This document shows, one piece after another, positions 30,281 through 35,855 of a DNA stretch of 58,500 nucleotides. Under the pieces are notes generated by a model that saw only the letters and a program-made list of their open reading frames with translations, made no database searches and had not been told where the DNA came from. The stretch spans positions 1 to 58,500 of the forward strand of contig JAGSGY010000028.1 in assembly GCA_023954855.1 (NCBI GenBank), read 5' to 3'. The first letter of the stretch is position 1. The number at the start of each line of letters is the position of its first letter. The DNA comes from Pseudomonadota bacterium (GTDB taxonomy: Bacteria; Myxococcota_A; UBA796; GCA-2862545). The position numbers were made by a program, and so were the translations under genes.

Positions 30281-30642
30281 TCTGGCTTCTTCTCGCTGCT
30301 TGTTCGAGTACGCCCACCATGTCCGAGACGCGGCCGCCCACTCCGGTGCAGGTCGATCCAGTGCTTGGGCGCCTTCGCGCTCGACCGCTCGACTACACCC
30401 GACACGCCGAGTGCCGCATGGACTGCCGGCACGTGTCAAAGGACGAAGTGGAGGAGATCCTTCGCGTCGGTGAGGTCGACCCCGAGCGCACCCGCTCGGA
30501 TGGAGAGTGCCCAAGCTACGCGGTCGAGGGCACTAGCTCCGACGACCAACGCCTGCGCATCGTCTACGCGGGCTGTGCCACCGAGACACGGGTCGTCACC
30601 GCGATCGACCTCGACACTGACTGGCCCTGCGACTGTCGCTAG
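30277..30642 (+). CDS. DUF4258-like lipoprotein
   Basis: The 121-residue product begins with a short lipoprotein signal, MIWLLLAAC. The remainder resembles DUF4258: YTRHAECRMDCRHVSKDEVE, then a strand pair ending LRIVYAGCATETRVVTAIDL and the tail WPCDC. Some soluble DUF4258 proteins resemble RelE-like toxins in fold, but the lipoprotein signal and extra Cys residues argue for an exported, disulfide-bonded relative. It is coupled to the pseudouridine synthase gene by ATGA. Its stop codon overlaps that of the convergent FG-GAP gene. Confidence 0.75.
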   Translation: MIWLLLAACSSTPTMSETRPPTPVQVDPVLGRLRARPLDYTRHAECRMDCRHVSKDEVEEILRVGEVDPERTRSDGECPSYAVEGTSSDDQRLRIVYAGCATETRVVTAIDLDTDWPCDCR

Positions 30643-32705
30643 TCCTTGTCGCGGAACTCGGGCTCTTTCCAAGGGTCCCAGGAGAAGCCGTACAGGAGCA
30701 TCGCCTCGCCAGCGGGAGCTCCTCGATACAGGCCCAAGGCCCGAAGCTCGATGTGGTGACGAAGGCCCTGCCGGTCCTTGTGCAGCCCGATCACGGTGCG
30801 GACACCGCCGCCGAGCTCCCAGATACCCGCTGCGCCGATCAGGCCGAAGCGGAACTGCTCTACGCCGACATCGACACCGACCGTGAACGTGCCGTACTGG
30901 TGCAGCTTTGCGTCGGCGGGGCCCAAGTATCGAAGGAAAGGCGCGGTCTCCATGCCTAGGACCAGCCCCAGACCGGGCGCTCCACTCTCACAGGCGAAGG
31001 CCAGGGCGGGAGAACCACCGAAGGCCACCTGGGAGTCATTGCCTACGAAGCTCCAGCTGTAGCGCGTCGAGGACACCGACATCGCACCGCCCGCGCCCAC
31101 GCGGAAGGTCCCGCAAATCGGCAGCTTGGCGCGGCCGCGTGGTTCTCCCTTTACACGAATGCGAGCGAGCTCGGGATAGTCCTCGGGCTCTTCGACGGGC
31201 ACCTCTTCGGGCGGCGCCTCATAGACTACCGACCTCCGCTTCAGGCGCTGGCTCCAGACGTAGAGCACCATCACTTCGCCAGTAACAGGTCCGAACACGG
31301 TCAGACGCGCCTCGAGGCCCTTGTATGCTCCGCCCGAGAGCCACGGAGTCAGCACGGTACGAATTCCGCCGCCGTAGTTGAAGACGCCGCCGGTGAGGAA
31401 CGGCCCGGCACGAAGTCGGGGGCTTCCGACCGTGACGCCCGCAGTGGCGTTCAGCAAGTGAATGCCGCCAGTGTCGTTCTCGCGAATCCAGAAGAACAGC
31501 GCCGCTGAGTCGACGCCGAGGAAGGCGCGCACGTGGGGCCCGCCGATTTCGTATCCGAGCGCGAGCGCTGGGAAGAAGGGGATCTGCACCGAGACGGGGC
31601 CGAGAGTGCGGCCCATCGCCCAGCCAGAGCCGACGACCACGTAGCGCTGGCGACGGTCCCGTTCTCTTTCCAGCGCCATGTCGTCGCCAAGGAAGGAAGG
31701 CACCTCCACCCCGAGCACGGTCCGCTTGCGACTGCGCTTGGCCTCAGCCAGGCGCGGAACGTCGTTCGGCCTAGCCTCTGGCTCTGGAGTCGGAGCCTCG
31801 ACTTCAATGCAGACTGCATTTAGGGTCGTCACGCCTGCCGCCCCCGCCAGCACGAGGTCCGCACAGCCATCCCCGTCGATGTCGCCGTGCTCGACGTGCA
31901 ACACACCGGTGGGCGTTGAGAAGGCCTCGACGGTCGTTCCCACGATCCACGTCGACACGCCTTCGCCGAGCACCAACAGGTCTTCGCCCACAGGCACGAG
32001 CTTACGCGCGTCCGGAAGGGGGGTTGACTGGTGCGCCATATCGGCCACCGCGAAGCTGTCCGGGAGAGTCCAGGTCCAGCCGCGGCGACTCCAGGCGAGG
32101 TCCGAAATGGGGCCGCCCGTCGCAAAGGACGAGAGGCCCGCCGCGCCGCGCTCGCTGACGAGCTCACCGCCAACCACCGAATAGGCGACAAGGCCCTGGT
32201 GGGAGGCGAGGAGGGGGGTCCCGGGCTGGCCATCAAACGGCGCTTCGGAAGAGGCGGAAGCGACACCCTCGCTCACCGAGTAGTGCCGAACCTCTCCCCC
32301 GCCAGCGGTGACGAGCCCGCGGTAGGGCCCCTCGTCCACTGCAACAATGGCCTCGCAGGCCTCGGACGAGAGCTCGAGAGCTTCGCCTCCGTACCGACCG
32401 GTCCACGGGACAGACCAGAGTCCCCCCGGTCCACACCCAACCAACTCGAGACGCCCGTCGCCATCGGTGTCGTAGAGCACCATATCGAGGCCACCCCGGT
32501 CCAGGGTCCGGACGACCTCTCCGTGCAGGGGATCCACGATCCACGACGCATTCGCGCCGAGAGCGATGACCACGTCGCGTTCCCCCATGGGGGCGGTGAT
32601 CATCGCCTGCACGGCGGCGGGCGTCTCGGTAGGACCGACAACCACATGGTCCCAAGCGAGGGCGGGCGTCCAGGCGACCAGTAGGGGGAGCAGCAGCGTT
32701 CTCAT
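30639..32705 (-). CDS. Exported FG-GAP/beta-barrel protein
   Basis: Started at ATG 32705 the product has 688 residues and a signal peptide ending TPALAWD. The N-terminal half contains FG-GAP/VCBS-type repeats with calcium-loop-like motifs, DTDGDGRLELVGCG and HGDIDGDGCADLVLAG, suggesting a propeller. The linker is rich in Glu, Pro and Arg. The C-terminal half alternates polar and hydrophobic residues with many Gly and aromatics (VVVGSGWAMGRTLGP; FFPALALGYEIGG), in two similar halves that could be outer membrane barrels. It ends WKEPEFRDKD. A surface-exposed propeller on a membrane anchor is a reasonable model, but the family is not recognised. Confidence 0.75.
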   Translation of the reverse strand: MRTLLLPLLVAWTPALAWDHVVVGPTETPAAVQAMITAPMGERDVVIALGANASWIVDPLHGEVVRTLDRGGLDMVLYDTDGDGRLELVGCGPGGLWSVPWTGRYGGEALELSSEACEAIVAVDEGPYRGLVTAGGGEVRHYSVSEGVASASSEAPFDGQPGTPLLASHQGLVAYSVVGGELVSERGAAGLSSFATGGPISDLAWSRRGWTWTLPDSFAVADMAHQSTPLPDARKLVPVGEDLLVLGEGVSTWIVGTTVEAFSTPTGVLHVEHGDIDGDGCADLVLAGAAGVTTLNAVCIEVEAPTPEPEARPNDVPRLAEAKRSRKRTVLGVEVPSFLGDDMALERERDRRQRYVVVGSGWAMGRTLGPVSVQIPFFPALALGYEIGGPHVRAFLGVDSAALFFWIRENDTGGIHLLNATAGVTVGSPRLRAGPFLTGGVFNYGGGIRTVLTPWLSGGAYKGLEARLTVFGPVTGEVMVLYVWSQRLKRRSVVYEAPPEEVPVEEPEDYPELARIRVKGEPRGRAKLPICGTFRVGAGGAMSVSSTRYSWSFVGNDSQVAFGGSPALAFACESGAPGLGLVLGMETAPFLRYLGPADAKLHQYGTFTVGVDVGVEQFRFGLIGAAGIWELGGGVRTVIGLHKDRQGLRHHIELRALGLYRGAPAGEAMLLYGFSWDPWKEPEFRDKD

Positions 32706-32748: not shown

Positions 32749-34755
32749 CTACTCGGGAGCGTCATCGATGACCGCGCGGAGGTCGTCATAGGCATCGTCT
32801 TCCATGGCCGAGAATCCCGTGATTCGCTCGAGATCGCCGAGTCGATCGGCGCCGACCGCATCCTGCGGGCTGAAGGCCAAGAGAGCCGCGCGCACGGCCT
32901 CGGCCTCTTCGGGGTCCGCCCCGAGGGACACAATCGCATCGTGCGGCGTGCGGCCGGTGATCATCAGTGTTCGCGCAGTCGACACCGTCACGCCGATCTC
33001 GTCGGCAGTACGAACGGCGCCCGAGTAGGTCGCAGCCAGTTCGCACTTGCCGTCGATGAGATCGCGGAGGACCTGGTGGTGGTTGCCGCTCTCGAAGAGG
33101 ACAAAGTCGGTCTCGGGGTCAAGGCCGGCCTGGCGCATGCGGTAGGTCGGCAGCACGAAGCCGGAGGTGCTCGCGGGGTCCGGGTAACAGAAGCGCCCTC
33201 CGACCAGGTCCTCGAGGCCCTTGGCCTTCGACTCTCCAGGCACGAGCAGCACACTGTCATGACCAGTGCTGTGGTCGAAGACCTTCATGGCCAGTAGCTC
33301 AAGGTCAGGGTGCTTCCGCTTGGTCTGCACGTACAGGTTCGGAGGAAGTGACGCGTACTGGGCGCTACCGGTACCGAGGTGCATCGCGGCCTGGTGGTAG
33401 CTCTCGACGATCGGCATCGCGACAGGTCGATTCAGCGCTGTCTCGAGGTAGCGGCGCAGGGGTTCGAGTTCGGCTGCGTAGGCCTCTTTGTCGAGAACCT
33501 CCGGGAAGACCAGTGTGATCTCCTCGCCCTCGGTCGGCGACACGTACGTATCGACCACCGGCGCGGTCCGGTAGATCTGCACCAACAGCAGAATGACCAG
33601 GACCCCAACGAGAGTGAGGATGACTCCAGTCACCGCTGCGGCACCCATCATGCCCACCGCCGAGGTGGTGGCCACACTTCCGCCGCGGGTCAGCGTCGTG
33701 GCATTGGTCGCATCTGTCGCGCCGCTCGCACTGCGCTCAAGCGCCACACCGACAGCACTCTGACGAGCCTTGTGGTGCTCACCAAGAACGGTGGCGATGA
33801 AGCGCGCCGTCTGGTCCTGGTCGATGAGCACATCGGACACCCGGGCGGCATCGAGAATCGCGCGCTGCATCGCTGCGGCAGTCTCGAAGCGGTCGTCCCG
33901 CTTCGCCGCGAGGGCTCGGTCGATGACCGCGACCAGGGCTTCCGGAACGTCGGGTCGGACCTCGGCGAGGGAACGCCGTTTGCCGGTGACGATCGCCTGA
34001 AGGGTCCCGAGCTCGGTCTTGGCCGAGAACAGCTTCTCGCCGGCGAGCAGCTCCCAGAGCACGGTACCGAGAGTGAAGATATCGCTGCGACGGTCGAGGT
34101 CTTCTTGGTGGCACTGCTCCGGGGACATGTAGGAGAGCTTGCCCTTCAGCACCCCCGTACGCGTTCGCTCACCTTGCTCACTCGCCTTGACGATGCCGAA
34201 GTCGAGCAGCTTCACGTGCCCGCCCGCCGTCACCATCAAGTTGTGCGGGGTCAGGTCTCGGTGCACCAGCCCAAGCCGACGACCGGAGCTGTCCATCGCT
34301 TCGTGCACTGCGTGCGAACCAGCGCAGGCTTGGGAGACCAGGTTGACCGCGACGCCAATCGGGATCGGGAGGTCCGCCGCGTCTGCCCCGCGCACCAGGT
34401 CGCGCAGGGTCGAGCCGTCGACGTACTCCATGGCGATAAAGGGTAGCCCTTCCGCCTCATCGAGTTCGAAGATCTGGACCACGTTCGGGTGGTTGACCCG
34501 CGCCTGCACCCGGGCTTCCTGCAGGAACATCCGAATGAAGTCGGGGCGCTCGGCAAGGTGAGGGAGGATCCGCTTGATCACCACCAGGCGTTCAAAGCCG
34601 TGCGAGCCCCTGTCGGAGGCAAGATGCACTTCGGCCATCCCGCCTACAGCGAGCCGCTCTACGAGCAGGTACCGGCCCACGGTCGAAGTGGGCGCCGGAG
34701 TCGGCAATGAGATGGGTGAGCCTCCGCGGTGATTGTATCGAAGGTCGCGTGCCAT
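32749..34755 (-). CDS. Ser/Thr protein kinase with transmembrane helix and PhnD-like periplasmic binding domain
   Basis: The 668-residue protein starts at ATG 34755; an upstream open extension runs antisense to mutY and is rejected. Residues about 27-300 are a Hanks-type kinase: GGMAEVHLA glycine loop, VVIKRILP lysine, VHRDLTPHN catalytic loop, LLDFG metal motif, KLSYMSPEQ activation segment. One membrane helix follows at about 370-400 (VTGVILTLVGVLVILLLVQI). The remaining 265 residues look like a phosphate/phosphonate-type binding protein (PhnD): ITLVFPEVLDKEAYAAELEP, YASLPPNLYVQTKRKHPDLE, DSVLLVPGES, FCYPDPASTSGFVLPTY, DLIDGKCELAATYSG. It is probably a receptor that senses an oxyanion-like ligand outside and signals by phosphorylation inside. 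Ligand and substrates are unknown. Confidence 0.85.
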   Translation of the reverse strand: MARDLRYNHRGGSPISLPTPAPTSTVGRYLLVERLAVGGMAEVHLASDRGSHGFERLVVIKRILPHLAERPDFIRMFLQEARVQARVNHPNVVQIFELDEAEGLPFIAMEYVDGSTLRDLVRGADAADLPIPIGVAVNLVSQACAGSHAVHEAMDSSGRRLGLVHRDLTPHNLMVTAGGHVKLLDFGIVKASEQGERTRTGVLKGKLSYMSPEQCHQEDLDRRSDIFTLGTVLWELLAGEKLFSAKTELGTLQAIVTGKRRSLAEVRPDVPEALVAVIDRALAAKRDDRFETAAAMQRAILDAARVSDVLIDQDQTARFIATVLGEHHKARQSAVGVALERSASGATDATNATTLTRGGSVATTSAVGMMGAAAVTGVILTLVGVLVILLLVQIYRTAPVVDTYVSPTEGEEITLVFPEVLDKEAYAAELEPLRRYLETALNRPVAMPIVESYHQAAMHLGTGSAQYASLPPNLYVQTKRKHPDLELLAMKVFDHSTGHDSVLLVPGESKAKGLEDLVGGRFCYPDPASTSGFVLPTYRMRQAGLDPETDFVLFESGNHHQVLRDLIDGKCELAATYSGAVRTADEIGVTVSTARTLMITGRTPHDAIVSLGADPEEAEAVRAALLAFSPQDAVGADRLGDLERITGFSAMEDDAYDDLRAVIDDAPE

Positions 34756-34772: not shown

Positions 34773-35855
34773 ATGACTGACGCTGAAACCCTCCGAAGCG
34801 CGCTGTTGGGCTGGTACGACGCCAATGCGAGAGACCTGCCGTGGCGGCAAGCGCCAACCCCATACAACGTGCTCTTGTCCGAAATGATGCTCCAGCAGAC
34901 CCGAGTCGACACGGCGCTGCCGTACTTTCATCGTTTTCTCGATCGATGGCCGACGCTGGCGGATCTCGCTGGCGCGACAGAGGAACAGGTGGTCGAGCAG
35001 TGGGCGGGCCTCGGGTACTACCGAAGGGCGCGTTTCCTACATCGCGCAGCTGTGGCGGCATCGGATCTCGGCGGGCTGCCCAACACCGTAGATGAGCTAC
35101 GCAAGCTCCCCGGCATCGGCCCTTACACGGCGGGAGCGATCGGTTCGATCGCGTTTGGTCTCGTGACCCCGTTGGTGGACGGAAACGTCGAGCGTGTGCT
35201 CTCCAGAGTCGACGATCGAGGCGCAGATCCGCGTTCCAAGGACGGCCGACGGGAGCTCTGGGGGCGGGCCACCGAACTCGTCGATCCCGAGCGACCCGGA
35301 GACTCCAATCAAGCCCTGATGGAGCTGGGGGCCCTGGTCTGCAAGCCCCGCAACCCCAACTGTCCGTCTTGCCCGTGGGAGACCCTCTGCACAGGTCAGT
35401 ACCGAGCCACCGAACTGCCGAAGAAGGCGCCACGCAAGAAGCCCGTTCCCATCCGCGAGGTGGCGGCCATCGTCCGCGGACCTGGGGGTTGGTTGCTTGG
35501 GCGGCGGCCCACCGGAGGCATGCTCGCGGGTCTCTGGGAACCCCTTCGTGTCACGCCGCACGACGGTGAGGGGACGCTGCCCGCGGCAGAGCGTGCACTC
35601 CTCGAGGGTGCCGGGCTCCGCGGCCACGCCAACGCTATCGTCGGAAGCATCGTGCACGTATTCAGCCACCGACGCCTCACTTTGGACCTCGTAGCGGTGG
35701 AGGCTACCGGCGCTCCGACAGCCGGCACCTACGCGGACGCGCGCTGGACGAGTCCAGAGGACGTAGCGCTCTCCTCACTCGCCAAGAAGGCCATCACCGC
35801 CGCCGATGTACCGCAGACGGTGCTCTCCTTCGCAGCGGATTCGGATGGTCACTGA
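34773..35855 (+). CDS. mutY: Adenine DNA glycosylase
   Basis: MutY removes adenine mispaired with 8-oxoguanine. From ATG 34773 the product is 360 residues. Visible are the N-terminal catalytic Glu segment (SEMMLQQTRV), the helix-hairpin-helix LPGIGPYTAGAI, the catalytic Asp in PLVDGNVERVLSR, and the 4Fe-4S loop CKPRNPNCPSCPWETLC with spacing 6-2-5. A C-terminal Nudix-like domain (AAIVRGPGGWLLGRRPTGGM) recognises 8-oxoguanine. Start codons of mutY and the divergent kinase are only 17 bases apart, so their promoters must overlap one another or the kinase coding region. Confidence 0.95.
   Translation: MTDAETLRSALLGWYDANARDLPWRQAPTPYNVLLSEMMLQQTRVDTALPYFHRFLDRWPTLADLAGATEEQVVEQWAGLGYYRRARFLHRAAVAASDLGGLPNTVDELRKLPGIGPYTAGAIGSIAFGLVTPLVDGNVERVLSRVDDRGADPRSKDGRRELWGRATELVDPERPGDSNQALMELGALVCKPRNPNCPSCPWETLCTGQYRATELPKKAPRKKPVPIREVAAIVRGPGGWLLGRRPTGGMLAGLWEPLRVTPHDGEGTLPAAERALLEGAGLRGHANAIVGSIVHVFSHRRLTLDLVAVEATGAPTAGTYADARWTSPEDVALSSLAKKAITAADVPQTVLSFAADSDGH

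Follow-up and report, generated by a model that had tools for sequence, protein, structure and literature searches.

A Myxococcota receptor-type Ser/Thr kinase with a PhnD/PtxB-type binding domain, a probable direct sensor of a small oxyanion

Can a single bacterial protein couple a Ser/Thr kinase directly to a phosphonate-type binding domain, and what would such a protein sense? The question is raised by a minus-strand open reading frame in a 58,500-nucleotide stretch of a Myxococcota genome (contig JAGSGY010000028.1, positions 1 to 58,500; hereafter the window). The frame is open from an ATG at 34755, encodes 668 aa (32749-34755, stop codon included) and is assigned as a receptor Ser/Thr kinase gene from the ORF itself, Pfam and orthologs. 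The Hanks-type kinase domain (aa 25-299; 33859-34683, minus strand) gives a Pkinase match over residues 33-298 (E 5.5e-31) and contains the G-loop, K61, E80, HRD (165-167), N172, DFG (185-187) and the activation loop. None of the catalytic residues K61, E80, H165-R166-D167, N172, D185 and G187 is lost, and an alignment of 14 relatives shows no variation at these positions, so that by sequence and fold the protein qualifies as a Hanks-type Ser/Thr kinase and the original prediction that all kinase motifs are intact is borne out. A membrane helix follows, placed by the predicted model at approximately residues 369-396 (33565-33651, minus strand). A hydropathy scan, which took in part of the 38 genomes with confirmed fusions described below, likewise places a peak after the kinase and before the binding domain in each fused relative it covered; two of the relatives show one extra, weaker peak inside the kinase. 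The C-terminal part (aa 405-668; 32752-33543, minus strand) is a PhnD/PtxB-type periplasmic binding domain, identified by Pfam, AlphaFold2 (AF2), the match to PtxB and pocket mapping. Its Phosphonate-bd (PF12974) match covers residues 422-656 (E 3.9e-37; 128.4 bits against a cut-off of 27).

Structure prediction supports both ends of the chain. The AF2 model of the whole protein, based on an alignment of nine sequences, has a pLDDT of 77, and its kinase superimposes on Mycobacterium tuberculosis PknB with Z 31.9 and rmsd 1.7 over 256 aligned residues. Folded alone, the C-terminal domain reaches pLDDT 91.9 and pTM 0.86, and this model matches phosphite-bound PtxB with Z 29.3 and rmsd 2.3 over 252 residues; AioX, ArrX and HtxB fall within one Z unit of PtxB, PhnD and GpxB score slightly lower, and Foldseek agrees. 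The binding-protein fold that the original prediction had proposed for residues 405-668 is thus predicted, of type II, and with Pfam, the predicted helix and hydropathy it confirms the proposed order of kinase, single membrane helix and PhnD-like domain in one chain. The model also contains a juxtamembrane helix of 40 residues (313-352). As a side observation, a profile of the fused domain matches transferrins weakly.

The fusion is neither an artefact nor confined to one gene. An ortholog from the same genus is about 71% identical, with dN 0.12 and dS 0.95 in the kinase and dN 0.28 and dS 1.20 in the binding domain; ortholog conservation, these dN/dS values and the predicted fold lead us to reject a chance or artefactual origin. 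That the fusion is unique is likewise rejected by a second copy in the same genome and by relatives across Myxococcota. The second copy, of the same domain order, is a 621-aa frame (C160; L017:2095-3948, minus strand), and full-length relatives were found through the family and order. Domain matches at E<=1e-20 occur in 138 of 379 sampled Myxococcota genomes, a count that includes non-kinase proteins; kinase followed by PhnD domain in a single ORF was confirmed in 38 of these genomes, from 11 families. A scan of named genomes with closest-type patterns, which reached close relatives only, returned nothing but Myxococcota or MAGs labelled 'Deltaproteobacteria/Proteobacteria', and no relatives were found among viral contigs. 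These relatives are what places the window in Myxococcota. Some kinase relatives carry an internal TAG; in the one checked (L100), translation probably begins only after this stop, and there is no anomaly. Some Myxococcota PF12974 frames of 330-445 aa have no kinase in the same ORF (L084, L087, L089-L092); they are the closest relatives outside the fused clade.

The branching pattern of the two domains provides clues on how the family arose. In the binding-domain tree all kinase-fused sequences form one clade (99/94), and the only unfused members inside it are those cut by contig ends or L023. In the latter, from an Archangiaceae MAG (L023:4755-6768), a single stop codon separates the kinase from the membrane-helix and binding part, the frame staying the same. 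The kinase tree, which rests on a limited sample and in which long branches meet near L014 and L017, likewise unites most kinases in one clade (98/95). Different kinases are carried by a six-member group and by the window genome's second copy (L017, together with L014). The binding domain of this second copy nests inside the clade of the window family, whereas its kinase is only distantly related to those of the main lineage, which suggests that the kinase was exchanged. Most simply, the sequences point to an early fusion, after which the binding module would have been re-paired at least twice with other kinases.

What the domain might bind can be approached through its pocket. We mapped ligand residues by comparison with PhnD of E. 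coli and PtxB of P. stutzeri; the residues that grip the phosphorus head by its three oxygens are known in PhnD/PtxB-type proteins (PMC5700983, PMC12718374). E. coli PhnD Y47, S127-T128-S129, H157 and D205 correspond to Y453, S529-T530-S531, H559 and D606 of the window kinase, giving the signature Y453, S529-T530-S531-G532, H559 and D606. The set required for a phosphorus head (Tyr, Ser-x-Ser/Thr, His) is therefore present as Y453, S529, S531 and H559, and across 46 fused sequences the Tyr is kept in 45, the first Ser, the Ser/Thr and the His in all, and the Asp in 45. The original prediction had instead singled out YASLPPNLYVQTKRKHPDLE as the conserved stretch of the binding domain. As a family ligand motif this was mistaken: its LPP core alone is conserved within the clade, but the rest is not, and the ligand signature lies elsewhere. 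Other positions have changed. The PhnD hinge tyrosine Y93 is replaced by H499 and mostly by Ser/Thr across the fused clade, and the adjoining residue 500 is acidic or Gln in 44 of 46 fused sequences, while the tyrosine persists in 12 of 14 non-fused relatives. PhnD E177, which binds the amine of 2-aminoethylphosphonate, corresponds to G579, so that only D606 remains of the amine pair E177/D205; the position of the capping tyrosine of phosphite-specific PtxB (Te_PtxB Y208) is also D606, as in E. coli PhnD. With the hinge tyrosine changed and E177 lost, the pocket is not fully that of a phosphite-specific protein, nor that of one specific for 2-aminoethylphosphonate. Since the head-group residues are kept, the pattern favours a three-oxygen anion with a hydrogen-bond-donating tail; the predicted ligand fitting best is such an anion, for example a phosphonate, phosphite or phosphate ester.

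The fused domains further carry a cysteine pair, C523 and C571, present in 46 of 46 fused and 0 of 14 non-fused domains. In the predicted model C523 lies within a strand and C571 just ahead of one, and a disulfide between them is plausible. The kinase also has a possible operon partner. Downstream on the same strand, across a 43-base gap, lies a gene for a 688-aa protein (30639-32705, minus strand) with a signal-peptide-like start and a weak FG-GAP match; a promoter and terminator scan was uninformative and found no terminator in the 43-base gap. A homolog adjoins the kinase in five other genomes (G001, G005, G010, G013, G017). The 688-aa protein has two similar C-terminal stretches. On the other side, a divergent mutY-like gene (HhH-GPD and NUDIX; 34773-35855, plus strand) begins 17 bases from the kinase start, an order shared with G001 and probably G013, and is given here as context only. 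The distribution of the cysteines, together with a secreted-type neighbour gene beside the kinase in six genomes, the window's included, could mean that the domain no longer senses a small ligand and instead reports redox state, by way of C523 and C571, or the binding of a partner such as the FG-GAP protein. We consider this quite unlikely: all the head-group residues are kept, although a domain with only a structural or redox function could do without them, and the pair is most simply read as a structural disulfide.

A lipid-related ligand deserves similar scrutiny. In 6 of the 15 kinase-bearing genomes of the family (G005, G009, G011, G012, G014, G018) the gene immediately upstream of the kinase is phosphatidylcholine-synthase-like, of a kind with a single copy per genome; the PF12974 match of the G014 kinase is weak (28.1 bits against the cut-off of 27). 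In G005 the row comprises the phosphatidylcholine-synthase-like gene, the kinase and the FG-GAP-like gene. By locus, the linkage is recorded at L069:5268-9679, where these three genes stand in a row, and at L006, L009, L013, L016 and L067. It would suit a kinase that monitors the state of membrane lipids by binding a sterol, glycerol phosphate or the head group of a phospholipid. Ligands of this sort are known for GpxB, which has the same fold and takes glycerol phosphates (PMC12718374), and for the PF12974 relative BstB, whose binding of sterols (PMC10942540) counts against a small anion as ligand. However, the window genome has its phosphatidylcholine-synthase-like gene elsewhere (C145), and a single sub-clade holds five of the six linked kinases (the sixth, from G014, is not placed there), so that common descent of the gene order may account for the link. 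Retention of the polar head-group residues, moreover, favours a small anion over a hydrophobic ligand, and we regard a lipid-related ligand as improbable. At the C145 locus (L108:739-6083) the gene stands among genes for transporter-like membrane proteins resembling an SSF symporter and an OPT transporter. In the distant family f16 an FHA-GAF-HD protein is often a neighbour of the kinase, either adjoining it or one or two small genes away (L057-L063), and is a possible phosphothreonine reader of the kinase's phosphorylation. All these neighbour-gene links to the kinase are suggestive only, and the neighbours point to no particular ligand.

The wider gene repertoire bears on whether the domain serves sensing or uptake. 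The original prediction of neighbours without phosphonate genes holds for the ten proteins scanned between 24972 and 42477, among which there is also no cognate permease or ATPase as would accompany the binding protein of an ABC importer. A PF13714 match (C146) was considered as a phosphonate biosynthesis gene and rejected, as it carries the isocitrate lyase motif KKCGH. The 97%-complete genome encodes only two PF12974 domains, both kinase-fused, and lacks phnJ, the gene for C-P lyase. On these grounds direct sensing is the better reading than transport, and the suggestion of a receptor that works without an importer gains support. A kinase working with a separate ABC importer, which would receive its ligand or control it in the manner of uptake with signalling that depends on a binding protein, recalls a distant relative (L073) whose kinase adjoins a betaine-type ABC system, but it is very improbable here given the membrane-tethered binding domain, the scanned neighbours without phosphonate-type importer genes and a genome with no further PF12974 protein.

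In this context, the best explanation, and in our view a likely one, is a one-piece transmembrane receptor Ser/Thr kinase that binds a small anion with a three-oxygen head. The N-terminal kinase would be cytoplasmic, the single helix would cross the inner membrane and the two-lobed C-terminal domain would be periplasmic. There, the head of a phosphonate, phosphite, phosphate ester or similar oxyanion would be held by Y453, the helix start at S529-T530-S531-G532 and H559, with D606 capping the tail of the ligand. Closure of the lobes would probably displace two helices, the one in the membrane and the long juxtamembrane one (313-352). Kinase pairing and autophosphorylation are general for PknB-like receptor kinases, and the helix shift may let two kinases pair, so as to phosphorylate themselves and their substrates; for the window kinase we infer orientation, ligand class, dimerisation and activation alike. 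The window kinase would then belong to an old, conserved family of myxobacteria and their relatives probably sensing a small oxyanion directly, without an importer. More speculatively, and we think unlikely, these ancient Myxococcota kinases might read a phosphorus-containing envelope molecule, such as a phosphonate, a phosphate ester or the head group of a lipid, and adjust the make-up of the membrane or envelope in response, the module having been re-paired with at least two other kinase types, as in the second copy of the window genome. What activates bacterial Ser/Thr kinases is described as an outstanding question (PMC6069109). The present family is widespread, and its outside domain has a fold of known ligand class and mapped ligand residues, so that the question of the ligand is directly approachable with the soluble domain, some 260 residues long. 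If true, the receptor model would place a direct oxyanion or phosphonate receptor among the many kinases of myxobacteria, most of which have no assigned role.

Comparison with known systems shows which parts of this arrangement have precedents. With PtxB, HtxB, PhnD and GpxB the window domain shares the fold and the residues that bind the phosphorus head, but those are free binding proteins of ABC importers, whereas the window domain is tethered by the membrane helix to a kinase, and the fused family has its own cysteine pair and has mostly lost the hinge tyrosine. AioX and ArrX, sensory binding proteins for arsenite and arsenate and the closest solved folds beside PtxB (Z about 29), work as proteins of their own upon histidine-kinase partners; the window kinase, in contrast, is one chain with its Ser/Thr kinase. 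A PF12974 domain serves as receptor sensor also in the tetrathionate and thiosulfate sensor histidine kinases TtrS and ThsS, there for a small anion (PMC5408782). In these the sensor precedes a HisKA/HATPase_c transmitter, the place of which is taken by Pkinase, a Hanks kinase, in the window protein. A binding protein also feeds a Ser/Thr kinase in GlnH-GlnX-PknG, via GlnX, but with three separate proteins and an amino-acid ligand (PMC6069109). Closest in plan are the Ser/Thr kinases with periplasmic solute-binding domains described by Krupa & Srinivasan 2005 (PMC1262709), such as those of the Glu/Gln-binding type in S. coelicolor and of the ANF-receptor type in Nostoc. They likewise combine kinase and periplasmic binding-protein domain in one chain, yet use other binding families, and the word 'phosphonate' is absent from the paper's text. 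A wide prior description of this exact architecture would have told against the original prediction; no description of a PhnD-kinase fusion was found in the literature searched (most subscription journals and database architecture listings aside). By its kinase, one membrane helix and binding-protein domain in a single chain, the window protein falls within this general kind, known since 2005 with other domains, of which the PhnD version is a real new variant.
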